DNA of 26,250 bases. It comes from a virus. Positions 17,655-21,730 of this stretch are shown here, piece by piece. The notes under the pieces are model-generated. The model saw nothing but the letters and a program-made list of their open reading frames with translations, made no database searches and had not been told where the DNA came from. Position 1 is the stretch's first letter. Every line of letters begins with the position of its first letter. The DNA lies in IMG/VR virus record IMGVR_UViG_3300030380_001117, positions 1-26,250 of that record. One strand, 5' to 3'. The position numbers and the translations under genes are program-made.

Positions 17655-17955
17655 ATCCTAATTCTCTTTTCCATTGATCTTGTATAACTCCCTTCCTATC
17701 ATTATAAATTTTACCTCTAAGCTCAGGATTTTCCTCCTGCAACTTTCTACGCATTCTTTCAATAGTTTTAATATTAGTTAATTTACTATTAGCAAAGAGC
17801 TGCATAAATTCATATCCAGTTATTTTATAAGGACTTATTTGTTTCTTTTTCAATTCGTTATACCAATAGGTAGCTATAAGCCTTGAATCACTATCTCTTA
17901 AATGAGGTTTATTAATTAGTAATTCCTTTACTACATCTTTTGTTTTATCTTTCAT
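17638..17955 (-). CDS. Conserved phage early protein, function unknown
   Basis: A 105-residue charged helical protein starting MKDKTKDVVKELLINKPHLR. Recognisable blocks: RDSDSRLIATYWYNELKKKQ, SNSKLTN-type segment ANSKLTNIKTIERMRRKLQE and ENPELRGKIYNDRKGVIQDQ. The latter, 'iERmRRklQe.nPelRG..Y..Rk', recurs in my memory of Bacteroidota phage early regions next to ninG. A helix-turn-helix or nucleic-acid-binding role is possible but not shown. It ends within ninG. Confidence 0.5.
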   Translation of the reverse strand: MKDKTKDVVKELLINKPHLRDSDSRLIATYWYNELKKKQISPYKITGYEFMQLFANSKLTNIKTIERMRRKLQEENPELRGKIYNDRKGVIQDQWKRELGYEVNQ

Positions 17956-17970
17956 TTTAGTTTTTTTTAG

Positions 17971-18033
17971 TTATTCTCTTATTCTTCTAATTAACCACAT
18001 CACAATGGCTGTTATTATTACCCATCCTATCAT
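17971..18033 (-). CDS. 20-residue membrane micropeptide, ATGA-coupled
   Basis: ATG 18031-18033 to TAA 17971-17973, product MIGWVIITAIVMWLIRRIRE. A hydrophobic span of about 14 residues is followed by a positively charged end, the shape of a minimal single-span membrane peptide. The ATG overlaps the TGA of the upstream replication gene (ATGA), and the next gene starts 15 bp downstream. Without it this would be the only gap in this part of the operon. It is too short to prove by composition. Confidence 0.4.
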   Translation of the reverse strand: MIGWVIITAIVMWLIRRIRE

Positions 18034-18398
18034 GATATTAATTTTAAAGGTTCTTGATAAAATAATACTTTCTTAGGGTCTTTACCTAATGTTTTTACTT
18101 CGTACCACGCATTGTCGATTACTTTTTTGTGGGCATATACCCATTTGTAAAATGTTCTTATATTTAAAAAGGGTTCATCTTTAGCAAAGCGAACACCTTG
18201 ATGAAAAGCATCCTGCACCTGATTAAAGGTCATATTGCCAAATCTTTTTTCGCTAATTAAATCTTGTGCAAATATCTTACTAAGACTTGCCAATGTTTGA
18301 GGGTCGGTTTTGTGTCCTATCTCTACACTAGTTTTTGCAATTAAGTCTAATACTTTTTCACTTAATTCTTGTAGGTTTTCTTGTTTTAATGGTTTCAT
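18030..18398 (-). CDS. Replication-associated protein, unknown activity
   Basis: I start this at ATG 18396-18398, which overlaps the upstream TGA as ATGA, rather than 24 bases earlier; this gives 122 residues starting MKPLKQENLQELSEKVLDLI. The C-terminal half has the block FNQVQDAFHQGVRFAKDEPF followed by LNIRTFYKWVYAHKKVIDNA. The pattern 'v..aF..GvR......f.n.rTfykWv' recurs in small phage proteins encoded beside replication initiators. A helicase-loader or primosome accessory role is possible from position right after the winged-helix protein. No ATPase motif is present. Confidence 0.5.
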   Translation of the reverse strand: MKPLKQENLQELSEKVLDLIAKTSVEIGHKTDPQTLASLSKIFAQDLISEKRFGNMTFNQVQDAFHQGVRFAKDEPFLNIRTFYKWVYAHKKVIDNAWYEVKTLGKDPKKVLFYQEPLKLIS

Positions 18399-19000
18399 AA
18401 TAGTTTTTTTGCTTCTTGCCAAGCATTTATCTGTGAATCTAGCTTAGACATTGTTGGTTTTTTGTTTTCTCTTTTCTCCCAAGTTCTGACTGCTGCTTTC
18501 CAGTCTTTCATTTTATTTTTACCTACCATCCAATCTTTTGATTCATAGAAATTAATAAACGCTTCTGCATCTATATTATTCTTGCGTAATATACAATAAT
18601 TTTCAACTTCATCTAAAATTGGTTTTTTAAAGAGAGCTTTCTTATTACTGTCTGTAAGATTAGTATTATTATATACTTTAGTATTAATATTATCTGTTAA
18701 CTTTTCTTTACAGGGCATGTTAACCAAAGTTATCACCCTTGTATCTATTTCTTTACTACCCTGTTTATATATGTTAACACGCTTAATATAATTATTGTCT
18801 TCTAAAATCTTTAGCCATTTTTGAATTGACACTCTACTTACTTCATATAGCTTACAGAAATATTCTGTTGATGCTGTACATCTTCCATTCATGTTACATA
18901 AAGCGGTTATCTCTGCATAAAGAAGTTTAGCATTAGGCGTTAGCTTTTTGCTGTATCTTACTTCAGCAGGAATAACCGCATAGTAATTAGGTTTTTGCAT
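18395..19000 (-). CDS. Winged-helix phage replication protein (O-like/DnaD-like)
   Basis: A 201-residue protein. The N-terminus (YYAVIPAEVRYSKKLTPNAK) and the winged-helix region at about 20-80 (LLYAEITALCNMNGRCTAST, FCKLYEVSRVSIQKWLKILE) match the helix-turn-helix replication proteins of many phages. The C-terminus (FINFYESKDWMVGKNKMKDW, then KAAVRTWEKRE) is the 'FyesknW.vgk.kMkdWkaAvrtW' motif seen at the end of phage O-like and DnaD-like proteins. It would bind origin DNA or recruit the host helicase. The central region (about 100-128) is polar and probably a linker. TAATG couples it to the DnaA-like gene upstream, and ATGA to the gene after it. Confidence 0.75.
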   Translation of the reverse strand: MQKPNYYAVIPAEVRYSKKLTPNAKLLYAEITALCNMNGRCTASTEYFCKLYEVSRVSIQKWLKILEDNNYIKRVNIYKQGSKEIDTRVITLVNMPCKEKLTDNINTKVYNNTNLTDSNKKALFKKPILDEVENYCILRKNNIDAEAFINFYESKDWMVGKNKMKDWKAAVRTWEKRENKKPTMSKLDSQINAWQEAKKLL

Positions 19001-19509
19001 TATATAATTTTTATTGAGTAATGATATTTGTCCATTGCAAACTTAACATTTTCTAATTGATTAGAAAAATCAAAGTAAGAAGTTTGAATAATACATATAG
19101 CTTCTCCACTTTTTACTTCTAAAAAAACTTGTGCTTTTTTATTTTCTCTAACGCCATTTTTAAGCAGATGTCTTTTCATAAAATCTCCATCCAAAAATGT
19201 TTGTTTAGTATTGTCAATTTCTTTAAATCCTCTATAAACCTTATTAAAGGTATTTCTATATATAATGCAACTTGCATAGTTCCCTTTATGACTTTTCTCA
19301 TAGTGATAGATTAAACTTCTATCTCTATTTAAAACCTTAGCTATAACGGTTCTATGTATTTTTTCTTCAGTCAATCCAATATATGCAGCAACTGAACGAG
19401 CTATTTGCAAAGGTCTTTTTCTACTTTTTAATGATAATGATCCACACTCAAATCCCATTAGCTTAGTTGTAAGATTGCAAATATTTTTAAAGTTATTCTC
19501 TTCTGACAT
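19000..19509 (-). CDS. Protein with DnaA domain-IV-like DNA-binding region
   Basis: I start this at ATG 19507-19509, 1 bp after the SSB-like stop, giving 169 residues (MSEENNFKNICNLTTKLMGF). Residues about 29-75 read SRKRPLQIARSVAAYIGLTE, then IAKVLNRDRSLIYHYEKSH. This is the order of DnaA domain IV: basic 'sRkR...aRqiamyl', then 'ig..fgRDHSTV.ha..k', with RDRSLI replacing RDHSTV. No AAA+ ATPase is present, so it is only the DNA-binding part, followed by about 85 unrelated residues ending in a beta-rich segment (VFLEVKSGEAICIIQTSYFD). Such domains bind DnaA-box sequences; three near-matches lie at 20801-20833. It may act in origin recognition or as a regulator. Confidence 0.65.
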   Translation of the reverse strand: MSEENNFKNICNLTTKLMGFECGSLSLKSRKRPLQIARSVAAYIGLTEEKIHRTVIAKVLNRDRSLIYHYEKSHKGNYASCIIYRNTFNKVYRGFKEIDNTKQTFLDGDFMKRHLLKNGVRENKKAQVFLEVKSGEAICIIQTSYFDFSNQLENVKFAMDKYHYSIKII

Positions 19510-19510
19510 T

Positions 19511-19834
19511 TTAAAAAGGCATATCATCAGATGTAACCATTTCGCTTACTTCTGTTGTTTCACTTTTATTTACAAAATGATAACCATCTATATTGTGATA
19601 ATATTTTCCCTTGTATTCTCTTGAATAAACATTGCAAAGAATACCAACCCTCATACCTTCTGCTAATTTGTTAAGCTGTGCAATCTTTTCATCACCAAAA
19701 GCACTTACAGCAACTAAGTTGTTAAATTCATTTCCTGTATCAATAACAACTGTTTGCTTTTGCCACTCTTTTCCAGCTTTACTTGTTCCTGATTCTATTT
19801 CTAGTTTTTTTACTAATTTTCCTGTTACTTCCAT
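19511..19834 (-). CDS. Single-stranded DNA-binding-like protein (DUF3127)
   Basis: A 107-residue protein of the DUF3127 type: TGKLVKKLEIESGTSKAGKE, then WQKQTVVIDTGNEFNNLVAV and the strand VGILCNVYSREYKGKYYHNI give the five-strand OB-fold order. The C-terminus is acidic and ends in SDDMPF, like the DDD(I/L)PF tip of bacterial SSB proteins through which partner proteins dock. It most likely coats single-stranded phage DNA during replication and recombination. The gene sits 11 bp after the candidate annealing gene and 1 bp before the DnaA-like gene. Confidence 0.78.
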   Translation of the reverse strand: MEVTGKLVKKLEIESGTSKAGKEWQKQTVVIDTGNEFNNLVAVSAFGDEKIAQLNKLAEGMRVGILCNVYSREYKGKYYHNIDGYHFVNKSETTEVSEMVTSDDMPF

Positions 19835-19845
19835 TTTTTTATTAT

Positions 19846-20238
19846 TTATTGATTATTACTCTTTTTAAAATCTTCTGATTCATCTTCACCAAATACTCCA
19901 AGCTCATAAAAGCCTGTTAGCTTTAATACTGCCCTGCTCATAGCTCGTTTTTCTGCCATTTCCATTACATACCATGTGTTGCAGTTACCATCTTTAAAAC
20001 CTCCTTTTAAAGCAGATCCGAATGTTTGTATTGATGCTTCACCTTTTAATGCATTGGCTTTTACTACACAAAAATCTCTTTCACAATTAATAACTTCATA
20101 ATCAATTGTAATATTTTCCATTGCTTGAATCTTGTCTATACCTGATCTAGTAATTATTACATAGTGTTGATGTTTGAAAATATCTTCTTTTTCTAATCCG
20201 TAGTAAAGATATTTTTCCTTAATTTTTTCTGTTTTCAT
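19846..20238 (-). CDS. Candidate recombination/annealing protein (Erf/Sak-like pattern)
   Basis: A 130-residue protein. The segment VKANALKGEASIQTFGSALK, then NTWYVMEMAEKRAMSRAVLK, then LTGFYELGVFGEDESEDF, has the order seen in phage single-strand annealing-type proteins: a beta region followed by 'p...aeTRA.gRAl...g', here MAEKRAMSRAVLKLTG. The acidic end may contact SSB. It lies directly upstream of the SSB-like gene, the usual neighbour. The protein is shorter than typical Erf or Rad52-like proteins (around 200), so an anti-host or accessory role remains possible. The ATG overlaps the upstream stop as TAATG. Confidence 0.45.
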   Translation of the reverse strand: MKTEKIKEKYLYYGLEKEDIFKHQHYVIITRSGIDKIQAMENITIDYEVINCERDFCVVKANALKGEASIQTFGSALKGGFKDGNCNTWYVMEMAEKRAMSRAVLKLTGFYELGVFGEDESEDFKKSNNQ

Positions 20239-20519
20239 TATCTTATATTTATTATTAGTGCTTTGTTTTTATAATATTGTCTATATCTCTTTAATGTTTC
20301 TTTATCCTCAAAGTCATAGCATTCATCAATATTCAATCCTGTTTCTTCACAATACTTTTCAAATGCTTCATCTATTTGCTTTCTAGTTCCAAATATTCTG
20401 ATAGCTGTACTTACAGGAACAGGGTTTGAATTGAATCGACTAAATTCTCCATTCCATTTATGTGAATCTCTATACTCTCCGTTAGGATAAAAGTAAAATG
20501 TATCGCATTCTAGTTTCAT
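20238..20519 (-). CDS. Early protein, function unknown (93 residues)
   Basis: The frame extends upstream to 20585, but I start at ATG 20517-20519, 2 bp after the preceding stop: this gives MKLECDTFYFYPNGEYRDSH, while the longer form would begin inside the previous gene with an unlikely sequence. Helical C-terminal half (IRIFGTRKQIDEAFEKYCEE, then KETLKRYRQYYKNKALI). No domain recognised. Second gene of the early operon. Confidence 0.5.
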   Translation of the reverse strand: MKLECDTFYFYPNGEYRDSHKWNGEFSRFNSNPVPVSTAIRIFGTRKQIDEAFEKYCEETGLNIDECYDFEDKETLKRYRQYYKNKALIINIR

Positions 20520-20521
20520 AA

Positions 20522-20752
20522 TTAGTAATTTAAATGTATATGTAATAAAATTGATCCTATAAATAATCCTATCATACTTGTGCAAAGTAAGAAAAACTCG
20601 AATTTTGACATTATTTCTTTATCATCATTAATAGTATAGTCAGCTGATGTATTAATAAATTCTCCTCTACTATTTTTTACATAGAAAAAGTTAGCTACTT
20701 CTTTTGGACTTAAATTGAAACTGTGACCTGTGTGTTTGTTTGTGATTTTCAT
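20522..20752 (-). CDS. First early gene: small C-terminally anchored membrane protein
   Basis: I start at ATG 20750-20752 (MKITNKHTGHSFNLSPKEVA), giving 76 residues. A longer reading from TTG 20782 would begin inside the promoter -7 element and so cannot be made from that promoter. Residues about 1-48 are soluble; about 50-74 (FEFFLLCTSMIGLFIGSILL) form one membrane span with a short tail. No family recognised. As the first gene transcribed after infection it could be a host-takeover or exclusion factor, but this is only a guess from its position. Confidence 0.55.
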   Translation of the reverse strand: MKITNKHTGHSFNLSPKEVANFFYVKNSRGEFINTSADYTINDDKEIMSKFEFFLLCTSMIGLFIGSILLHIHLNY

Positions 20753-20779
20753 TTTAGTTATTTTAGTTAAACAATGGTA

Positions 20780-20811
20780 CAAAAGTAATAAAAATAAAAG
20801 ATATTCACAAA
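20780..20811 (-). promoter_or_regulatory. Early promoter, Bacteroidota primary-sigma type
   Basis: On the minus strand TTTG (20808-20811), 20 bases, TACTTTTG (20780-20787). This fits the Bacteroidota vegetative consensus (TTTG near -33, TAnnTTTG near -7, spacing 17-23). The start of transcription would be about 20774, leaving a leader of about 22 A-rich bases before ATG 20752. It is the only such pair I found in a non-coding stretch on the coding strand. The -33 box lies in the first DnaA-box-like repeat. Confidence 0.7.
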
Positions 20812-20836
20812 ATGATTCACAAACTTATTAACAATT
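20801..20836. repeat. Three 12-bp DnaA-box-like direct repeats
   Basis: Plus strand units: ATATTCACAAAA (20801-20812), TGATTCACAAAC (20813-20824), TTATTAACAATT (20825-20836), head to tail without gaps. The first nine bases of each match the DnaA box TTATNCACA with a single mismatch. The 9-mer ATTCACAAA is exact in units one and two, 12 bp apart. The repeats overlap the early promoter -33 box and the palindrome. They could be iterons of an origin, operator sites, or both. Confidence 0.5.
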
Positions 20837-20849
20837 TAGGTGTTAATAA
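20825..20849. repeat. Perfect 9-bp palindrome upstream of the early promoter
   Basis: TTATTAACA (20825-20833), seven bases, TGTTAATAA (20841-20849). Flanking AAAC (20821-20824) and GTTT (20852-20855) can extend the stem across a 2-base bulge. Each arm is also a one-mismatch DnaA box, so this gives two oppositely oriented boxes. No T-run follows on the minus strand, so an operator or origin element is more likely than a terminator. The 48 bp up to 20897 show nothing further. Confidence 0.5.
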
Positions 20850-20897
20850 AGGTTTTACTAGAGAAGATTAGAGGAGTTCTAAGATGCTTGTAAGGGG

Positions 20898-20984
20898 TTA
20901 TACTGTTCCTATAAAGTAAATGGCTGTCATAAGCCCTATATACAGTATAAAGAGGCGAAAATTGTATTTATCTTCTGTACTCAT
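20898..20984 (-). CDS. 28-residue membrane micropeptide, TAATG-coupled
   Basis: ATG 20982-20984 to TAA 20898-20900; the product starts MSTEDKYNFRLFILYIGLMT and ends AIYFIGTV. The first ten residues are polar, the rest is one membrane span. The ATG overlaps the stop of the phosphoesterase gene as TAATG. It occupies most of what would look like a 230-bp gap and is the last ORF before the regulatory region. It contains an inverted repeat (20898-20906 with 20942-20950) that may or may not matter. No family recognised. Confidence 0.45.
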   Translation of the reverse strand: MSTEDKYNFRLFILYIGLMTAIYFIGTV

Positions 20985-21730
20985 TATAAAGGCATGGGTT
21001 CTAAAATAGGTAGTCGACCATTGTCAAGAATTACTCCTACTGCTATTATGGGTTTCTTAGTAAAATTCTTAGCATAGTTCGCTGCATAGCTGGAAACATT
21101 GAATGCCGAGCCGAGCTGCATTGACCACAATAGACTATCTTTGTTTGCGTGATAGATTATGCTAGTTTCAGTATGTATATGACCCTGAACTATTTTAGTA
21201 TTCCAGTTTATAGCTCTATTAATAGCACCATTTCTACCTGAGCTTCCTGTACCATGTAAATACATTACTCCATCTTCTACAAACTTGTCCTTCCATATCC
21301 AGCCAGGAGTGCCTAAAACATCATTGAAATCTTTAAGCCATGCTTGAGATAAGCCAGATGCAACAAGTTTTCTTGATATGATAGCATCATGGTTGCCAAT
21401 GCAAATTGTAGCCTCACTCCACTCCTCCCAAAATGGCTTAATTTGTTCTATTGCTAATGCAAGTTCATCACCTGCACTTTTGCCATCAGGGCATATCTCA
21501 TGAAACGAACTAAAACTATTGTCCAGCAAATCACCACAAAAATGTACGGAATTGCAATTCCATTTTTTATAAATAGCTTTACAGTGTTCAAAAAAGCCAG
21601 GCTCAACGAAAGGAGCATGTAAATCTGGTATGATTAACTTTCTCCTTTCATCTTTTGCCCTACTTTCTTTTATAAGCTCAATCTCGTGGGGTTTTAATCT
21701 AAATCTATTATTTTTTTGCACTGTCAGCAA
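20984..21730 (-). CDS. Calcineurin-like metallophosphoesterase
   Basis: A 248-residue protein with all metal-binding motifs of the family in order: D36-L-H38 (IIPDLHAP), G66-D67-L-L-D70 (HFCGDLLDN), G112-N113-H114-D115 (ICIGNHDA), H159 (YLHG) and G183-H184-I-H186 (VQGHIHTE). It should hydrolyse phosphate esters using two metal ions; the substrate (nucleotide, nucleic acid end or phosphoprotein) is not predictable. The frame opens at TTG 21730; GTG 21721 is a better start because it lies just before the holin-like stop, as at most junctions here. No ATG is near. It lies between the lysis genes and the origin-like region, so it may be expressed late. Confidence 0.82.
   Translation of the reverse strand: MLTVQKNNRFRLKPHEIELIKESRAKDERRKLIIPDLHAPFVEPGFFEHCKAIYKKWNCNSVHFCGDLLDNSFSSFHEICPDGKSAGDELALAIEQIKPFWEEWSEATICIGNHDAIISRKLVASGLSQAWLKDFNDVLGTPGWIWKDKFVEDGVMYLHGTGSSGRNGAINRAINWNTKIVQGHIHTETSIIYHANKDSLLWSMQLGSAFNVSSYAANYAKNFTKKPIIAVGVILDNGRLPILEPMPL

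Follow-up and report, generated by a model that had tools for sequence, protein, structure and literature searches.

A promoter-locked array of DnaA-box-like repeats as the probable operator of a phage DnaA domain IV protein

An array of 12-bp repeats overlaps the early promoter of a phage whose hosts are very probably marine Flavobacteriaceae, and the fixed geometry of array and promoter across relatives makes a strong case that the array is the operator of this promoter. With moderate confidence, we propose that it works as an autoregulatory operator of the DnaA type, bound by a phage DnaA domain IV (DnaA-IV) protein made from its own operon. The window analysed is a stretch of 26,250 bases out of a 27,840-base virus record, and its main genes all lie on the minus strand. 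We place the host in the marine Flavobacteriaceae because the window's terminase and that of Nonlabens phage P12024S share 64% identity and because the promoter is of the Bacteroidetes type.

In the available text of PMC2483708, the Bacteroidetes promoter motif is defined as TAnnTTTG/TTTG. By this definition, the leftward early promoter combines a -33 element, TTTG (20808-20811), with a -7 element, TACTTTTG (TAnnTTTG, 20780-20787), both on the minus strand and 20 bp apart. Promoter and array share an intergenic regulatory region at 20753-20897 (strand not assigned). A+T reaches 75% over 20753-20898 (146 bp, across the gap) and 82% over 20779-20850. The earlier note had described an AT-rich, non-coding gap of 145 bp here; the base composition bears this out, and the length does so only if a 28-codon ORF at about 20898-20984 is counted as coding. 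This small minus-strand ORF follows the phosphoesterase gene and has a transmembrane look; by eye, a similar ORF of 25-28 codons sits at the same place in several relatives, and an inverted repeat at about 20890-20960 falls inside it.

Leftward from the promoter, the minus strand encodes a first ORF of 76 aa without a family (20522-20752), one of 93 aa without a confident family (20238-20519) and one of 130 aa whose sole match, to phrog_22961 of unknown function, is weak (19846-20238). These are followed by a DUF3127 or single-strand DNA-binding-like protein (19511-19834; Pfam E 3.6e-20, phrog_4932 E 1.3e-15), by the candidate array binder, in which a stand-alone DnaA domain IV (about residues 1-100) is joined to a 65-residue C-terminal domain (19000-19509), and by an HTH_36 replication-initiation-like protein (18395-19000; Pfam E 4.2e-12, phrog_19658 E 1.8e-23). 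The syntenic upstream neighbour is a metallophosphoesterase gene (20984-21730, minus), which served as a marker. Rfam gave no match in 20600-21050 of the window and, at gathering scores, none in the window and seven loci. Several relatives carry a short inverted repeat, CTAGACAG...AAAGT...CTAGT, upstream of the array (L005 1915-1955, L007 2390-2415, L011 1065-1095). One relative, L003, has three distinct hammerhead-ribozyme-like sequences (CUGAUGA...GAAAC...GUC with complementary stems; 988-1036, 1340-1386 and 1602-1650) between small ORFs just downstream of its early promoter. They fall under the Rfam gathering cut-offs (22.6 bits, Hammerhead_1), and a stem-checked pattern scan of the loci collected returned these three sites and one poor match.

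The array itself is made of three gapless units on the minus strand. Unit 1, the promoter-distal one (20825-20836), has the core TGTTAATAA, with the conserved register TTGTTAATAAGT at 20823-20834; unit 2 (20813-20824) has the core TGTGAATCA, for which the family consensus is TGTAAATAA; and the promoter-proximal unit 3 (20801-20812), with the core TGTGAATAT, covers the -33 element. Beyond unit 1, an inverted box on the plus strand (20841-20849; TTATTAACA in the minus-strand reading) forms a perfect inverted repeat with it, 7 bp apart. Read on the plus strand, 20801-20836 is ATATTCACAAAA, TGATTCACAAAC and TTATTAACAATT, and 20841-20849 is TGTTAATAA, the inverse of TTATTAACA. Each of the four 9-mers differs from the DnaA box TTATNCACA at exactly one position. 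Thus, the three units with one mismatch each and the inverted box that the earlier note had reported are all there, and the -33 box does lie in what it called the first unit (20801-20812, our unit 3), as TTTG at 20811-20808 of the minus strand.

Four boxes with at most one mismatch to TTATNCACA within 50 bp is a density that none of 1000 dinucleotide shuffles of the local 300 bp attains, and in 40 shuffles of the whole window the densest cluster holds at most 3 per 50 bp. Over the window as a whole, one-mismatch boxes are not enriched (39 sites, against 36-61 in 40 dinucleotide shuffles). Tandem Repeats Finder reports the array unprompted (20803-20834, period 12, 2.7 copies, score 43). In a single sequence, the array is a modest find that would not stand out, because five other repeats of the window score equally or higher. 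Could these be functionless, A+T-rich repeats arisen by chance? The base composition of the region would suit such an origin, as would the six tandem-repeat rows that score at least 43 in the window, the array included. The idea is refuted by conservation, and with the quantised spacing and the gene linkage described below also against it we give it almost no probability at all.

Relatives were collected in two scans of IMG/VR: the 19000-19509 protein as query yielded 10 loci and an alignment of its relatives 80, some contigs being in both sets. The relatives assessed comprise 84 entries, that is, 83 loci and the window. A 22-base core, TTGTTAATAASTTTGTAAATAA, was searched for upstream of the gene with up to 5 mismatches, and it was found in 59 of the 84 entries, representing 53 distinct contexts. 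At the same place as in the window, the arrays share the 12-bp consensus units TTGTTAATAACT-TTGTAAATAANT-NTGTTAATAT. In 19 of the 25 entries without the core, the contig ends less than 2.2 kb upstream; the other six have 5 kb. By eye, five loci (L023, L038, L082, L088 and L090) show a diverged array in 12-bp steps before a TAnnTTTG box, and the gap of L050 holds only GTGAAAAA-like repeats. The array occurs once per genome.

Since the core had selected the loci, fair evidence of conservation must come from positions outside it. The third unit, for which there was no selection, is conserved (T25 0.94, G26 0.91, T27 0.91), as is the inverted TTAACA (T-14 to A-7), likewise not selected for. TTAACA stands at the exact place of the inverted box in 36 of 83 arrays and in 25 of the 50 from loci that were not found by motif. 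Unit 1 reads TGTTAATAA in 69 of the 82 arrays with NGT there (36 of 49 in loci not found by motif). The check in related phages that followed from the earlier note did not refute it: the 12-bp period is conserved.

The boxes, however, are mostly not canonical DnaA boxes. Exact TGTGNATAA, which is TTATNCACA reversed, is found once among 82 first and once among 74 second units, 5 times among 81 third units and 9 times among 44 fourth units; a systematic variant, TTATTAACA, takes its place. Judged by 9-mers that match TTATNCACA, the array thus falls outside the DnaA box arrays. The term DnaA-box-like, used in the earlier note, is right about the likeness, at one mismatch per box, and would be wrong for a canonical box, since the family consensus is TTATTAACA/TTATTTACA and not TTATNCACA. 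The window is atypical among its relatives in that units 2 and 3 have retained the G.

The phasing of the array to the promoter points to its function. In 84 arrays, the spacing between -7 and the start of unit 1 is 45-48 in 37 cases, 57-58 in 41 and 50 in 3. Single arrays lie at 34 (a two-unit array), 60 and 31, the last being a mis-call in L223, where the true -7 lies at 58. The 51 arrays from loci not found by motif follow the same steps (33 at 45-50, 15 at 57-58, and 31, 34 and 60 once each). Such quantised distances imply that arrays lengthen or shorten by entire 12-bp units, with the last one fixed on the -33 element. The geometry between sites and early promoter is thus fixed across relatives, as befits an operator. 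The last unit always lies on the -33 element, and an origin alone needs no such phasing, which is why we read the array as the operator of the early promoter. The earlier note had proposed an origin that doubles as operator; the operator half of this proposal is well supported by the conserved 12-bp period and its phase to -7.

The array also travels with the gene of the DnaA-IV protein. The exact core occurs in 105 contig stretches of IMG/VR, and the gene lies downstream on the same strand at 77 of 114 exact-core places, a count in which overlapping loci of one contig can appear more than once. The remaining 37 places contradict nothing, because their sequence ends within 2117 bases downstream; wherever more than 2.2 kb follows an array, the gene is there. 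In a set chosen instead by terminase (80 loci from viruses, 13 from assembled bacterial genomes), all 10 contigs with the phosphoesterase and the module have the array. Nine are recognised by profile score (13.1 to 42.3), and in the tenth, L280, unit 1 and the inverted box are in place and the last unit is off by about one base. In Nonlabens phage P12024S, the phosphoesterase and DUF3127 genes are present and the DnaA-IV gene is missing; a search for the array in it, including a reading of the gap, found none, only 2 chance-level matches at 3 mismatches. This contrast comes from one gene-less syntenic phage type, and the linkage could reflect shared ancestry rather than function.

What, then, is this protein? 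In the set of 102 aligned relatives, 85 match Pfam Bac_DnaA_C (PF08299) at E 0.01 or better, the lowest E being 1.6e-8; on its own, the window protein reaches 18.7 bits, under the curated cut-off of 31.5 bits. Against PDB sequences, the top match of the profile is to DnaA (E 0.036), to which 3 of the 12 matches up to E 1 belong. The AlphaFold2 model (pLDDT 90.6) places residues 5-97/100 on DnaA domain IV as bound to DnaA-box DNA (3pvp, Z 15.8; 1j1v, Z 14.7), over 93-96 residues at an rmsd of 1.9-2.0, and the first unrelated entry follows at Z 5.6. By homology and predicted fold, the 19000-19509 product is thus a stand-alone DnaA domain IV. It differs from a full DnaA initiator in that its 169 aa contain only the C-terminal HTH family and no AAA+ domain III. 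Predicted alone, the C-terminal part (residues 104-169, pLDDT 88.3) has no clear fold relative; the best matches are PII/CutA-like and designed proteins (Z up to 4.3), and as DnaA domain I is absent from the matches listed, the models lend no support to that identity.

Three arginines, R30, R38 and R64, are invariant in all 102 members. In an alignment with Bacillus subtilis DnaA, R30 and R38 fall on the arginines of the minor-groove contact and the HTH, and R64 falls on the His of RDHTT, which opens the recognition helix of DnaA. We take the three to correspond to residues 399, 407 and 434 of Escherichia coli DnaA. According to the available text of PMC5742627, Arg399 reads 5'-TTA in the minor groove, and recognition of TnCACA falls to the helix 434-451. 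The phage boxes retain the TTA half and differ in the CACA half, which is what would be expected of a domain IV with a kept arginine and an altered helix start. This correspondence between the change in the box and the change in the helix is suggestive. By eye, array variants such as TGTTAAAAA showed no pattern of covariation with recognition-helix residues. As for the spread of the protein, tblastn against 50,697 phage records gave no match, and a pattern search in bacterial genomes left none of 57 stretches confirmed. Two phage contigs of the same group, binned in 'Euryarchaeota' and 'Pseudooceanicola' MAGs (L286 and L287), do carry the DnaA-IV gene; these placements are probable binning errors.

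An unexpected finding came from the bacterial side, where unit 1 of the phage array is found as an element of the host dnaN promoter. As host set we used 41 genomes from the family of a Psychroflexus MAG, which we take to be the Flavobacteriaceae. The exact 15-mer TGTTAATAASTTTGT (in the window's form, TGTTAATAAGTTTGT) occurs 19 times in them, against 4 occurrences of a reversed-pattern control. Eighteen of the 19 sites lie 61 to 259 bases ahead of an MKFIVS start, which is the start of dnaN (L368-L385), and all 18 are exactly 38 bases from the -7 box. Thus, TGTTAATAAGTTTGT marks the dnaN promoters of Flavobacteriaceae almost uniquely. TGTTAATAA itself is present in 24 of 30 host dnaN upstream regions. 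Counted from the same base, the register to -7 is 46 and 57 in the phages and 38 and 48-49 in the hosts. In the available part of PMC5682007, dnaN of F. psychrophilum is described as likely having its own promoter, and that account does not include the box.

Since the dnaN box occurs in bacteria that have no phage protein, some host protein presumably reads the sequence of unit 1, and host DnaA is the plain candidate; the phage DnaA-IV protein could act there too. This raises an alternative for the phage array as well: host DnaA may be its main ligand, the early promoter following or titrating host DnaA and the phage protein acting as a competitor. The dnaN boxes are in keeping with it, and so is a TTRTNCACA-like box that abuts the -7 of the host dnaA promoter in 26 of 30 Flavobacteriaceae genomes (L300-L335), suggesting DnaA autoregulation; units 2 and 3 of the window moreover keep the G of TGTGNATAA. 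We nevertheless consider host DnaA an unlikely main ligand, because exact DnaA boxes are as rare in the arrays as counted above, the array tracks the phage gene and is absent from P12024S, and host domain IV has the canonical RDH signature, kept in 31 loci. Less likely again would be an unrelated transcription factor of dnaN, from host or phage, that reads the boxes, their likeness to DnaA boxes being incidental. The tight marking of dnaN promoters by the 15-mer at a constant 38 bp from -7 fits such a factor, as does the deviation of the family consensus from the DnaA box at the same position; it would leave unaccounted for both the close association of the array with a DnaA domain IV gene and the retained ATAA half, which is read by the conserved arginine.

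Box clusters were also sought in the host genomes. Triplets of the canonical box (TTATNCACA, gaps up to 30) were found in 0 of 41, TTATTAACA-led triplets in 1 of 60 and gapless 12-bp canonical triplets with at most one mismatch in 0 of 100. As canonical clusters were not found, the host oriC was not located for comparison. The full phage array matched in 2 of 199 at up to 2 mismatches: the match in L336 is a coding coincidence, and the other, L337 1501-1540, is a promoter-like gap with three tandem 12-bp TTGTTAATAA units (a triple repeat of TGTTAATAA) before a TACCTTG box. This is the sole host site that resembles the phage array; about 0.4 kb upstream of it is an ORF that we assume, from its start, to resemble a sliding clamp.

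To explain these results, we return to the autoregulatory operator. The binder of the 12-bp units is most likely the phage DnaA-IV protein, acting cooperatively. Early in infection, host RNA polymerase would transcribe the early promoter. As DnaA-IV protein accumulates, occupancy would begin at unit 1 and the inverted box and extend to the last unit, the one over -33, and the operon would be turned down or tuned, much like DnaA autoregulation. The array, its conservation, its phasing to the promoter, its link with the gene and the domain IV homology are observed; the sign of the regulation, the cooperativity and the protein as binder are what we infer. The same complex may possibly have an additional role in starting phage DNA replication.

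Alternatively, the array may be the phage replication origin, where DnaA-IV on the boxes would recruit the HTH_36 initiator and the SSB-like protein and open the A+T-rich stretch, with transcription from the promoter perhaps activating the origin, by analogy with lambda. We see this as a tentative possibility. The array heads the replication operon, its surroundings (20779-20850) are the 82% A+T stretch, its candidate binder is of the DnaA family, and the gapless 12-bp phasing and single copy per genome would suit an origin. The replication module (17950-20900) holds no other iteron set, only two two-copy families, and with no competitor the origin could lie at the array. In the available text of PMC7466680, lambda offers a precedent, with iterons, transcriptional activation and DnaA stimulating pR. 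Against an origin, GC skew in four near-full genomes is positive throughout with no sign change at the array, a test that the one-strand gene layout weakens; in the downstream half, third-position skew is somewhat raised, for which early and late gene content could also account. One relative, G003 (L392, L393; 28,522 bases), has a 127-base direct repeat at its ends and is probably a complete, circularly assembled genome. The phase-lock to the promoter is also something that an origin alone does not require, and the stand-alone protein lacks the AAA+ domain for DNA melting. Finally, lambda-type origins sit within the initiator gene. Like the array, the lambda origin has tandem repeats, an initiator in the same operon and promoter coupling; its iterons, however, lie inside gene O and are read by another protein (PMC7466680, available text), whereas the phage array overlaps the early promoter and lies between genes, with the HTH_36 gene about 1.8 kb away.

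How does the proposed operator compare with known systems? With bacterial DnaA and its boxes (oriC, dnaA autoregulation) it shares the domain IV fold, the key arginines, the ordered arrays of 9-bp boxes and a box that overlaps the promoter of a replication gene. It differs in a protein reduced to domain IV plus an added C-terminal domain, in the TTATTAACA/TTATTTACA consensus with its exact gapless 12-bp period, and in the His to Arg change of the recognition helix in all 102 members. Promoter-acting DnaA domain IV relatives are already known in phage-derived elements: GafY (HdaB in an earlier report), of the Caulobacter gene transfer agent, is a DnaA domain IV homologue that binds promoter regions (PMC9632790). 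As described in the available text of that paper, it resembles the phage protein in homology and in acting on promoters in a phage-derived element; it differs in regulating gene transfer agent operons, in an alphaproteobacterium, and that text describes no tandem 12-bp box array. Stand-alone Bac_DnaA_C (PF08299) ORFs in other Flavobacteriaceae elements share the Pfam domain, the small size and phage-like neighbourhoods, but 7 such ORFs (one in an alphaproteobacterial bin) have no array upstream, with a best score of 1.5 against at least 13 in most true arrays. These unrelated ORFs (L396-L402, 96-150 aa, bacterial assemblies) have helices of the DHT/DHS type or changed ones. New to us are the variant form of the box, the quantised array locked to the promoter, and the dnaN link; in the available portions of the literature on DnaA boxes, phage DnaA-like proteins, Bac_DnaA_C in phages, dnaN and Flavobacteria promoters and lambda pR we recognised no treatment of the array or the dnaN element, which leaves such an absence unproven.

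The conserved array and its linked gene suggest a small phage switch built from a bacterial replication initiator. Should DnaA or the phage protein bind the dnaN element, it would offer a handle on how clamp supply and initiation are controlled in Flavobacteriaceae, a family in which canonical box clusters were not found in the 41 genomes searched. For an abundant marine phage group, represented by the 105 IMG/VR contig stretches, this defines a cis element and names a candidate regulator to match; together, array and protein make a test case for the re-coding of DnaA domain IV specificity.
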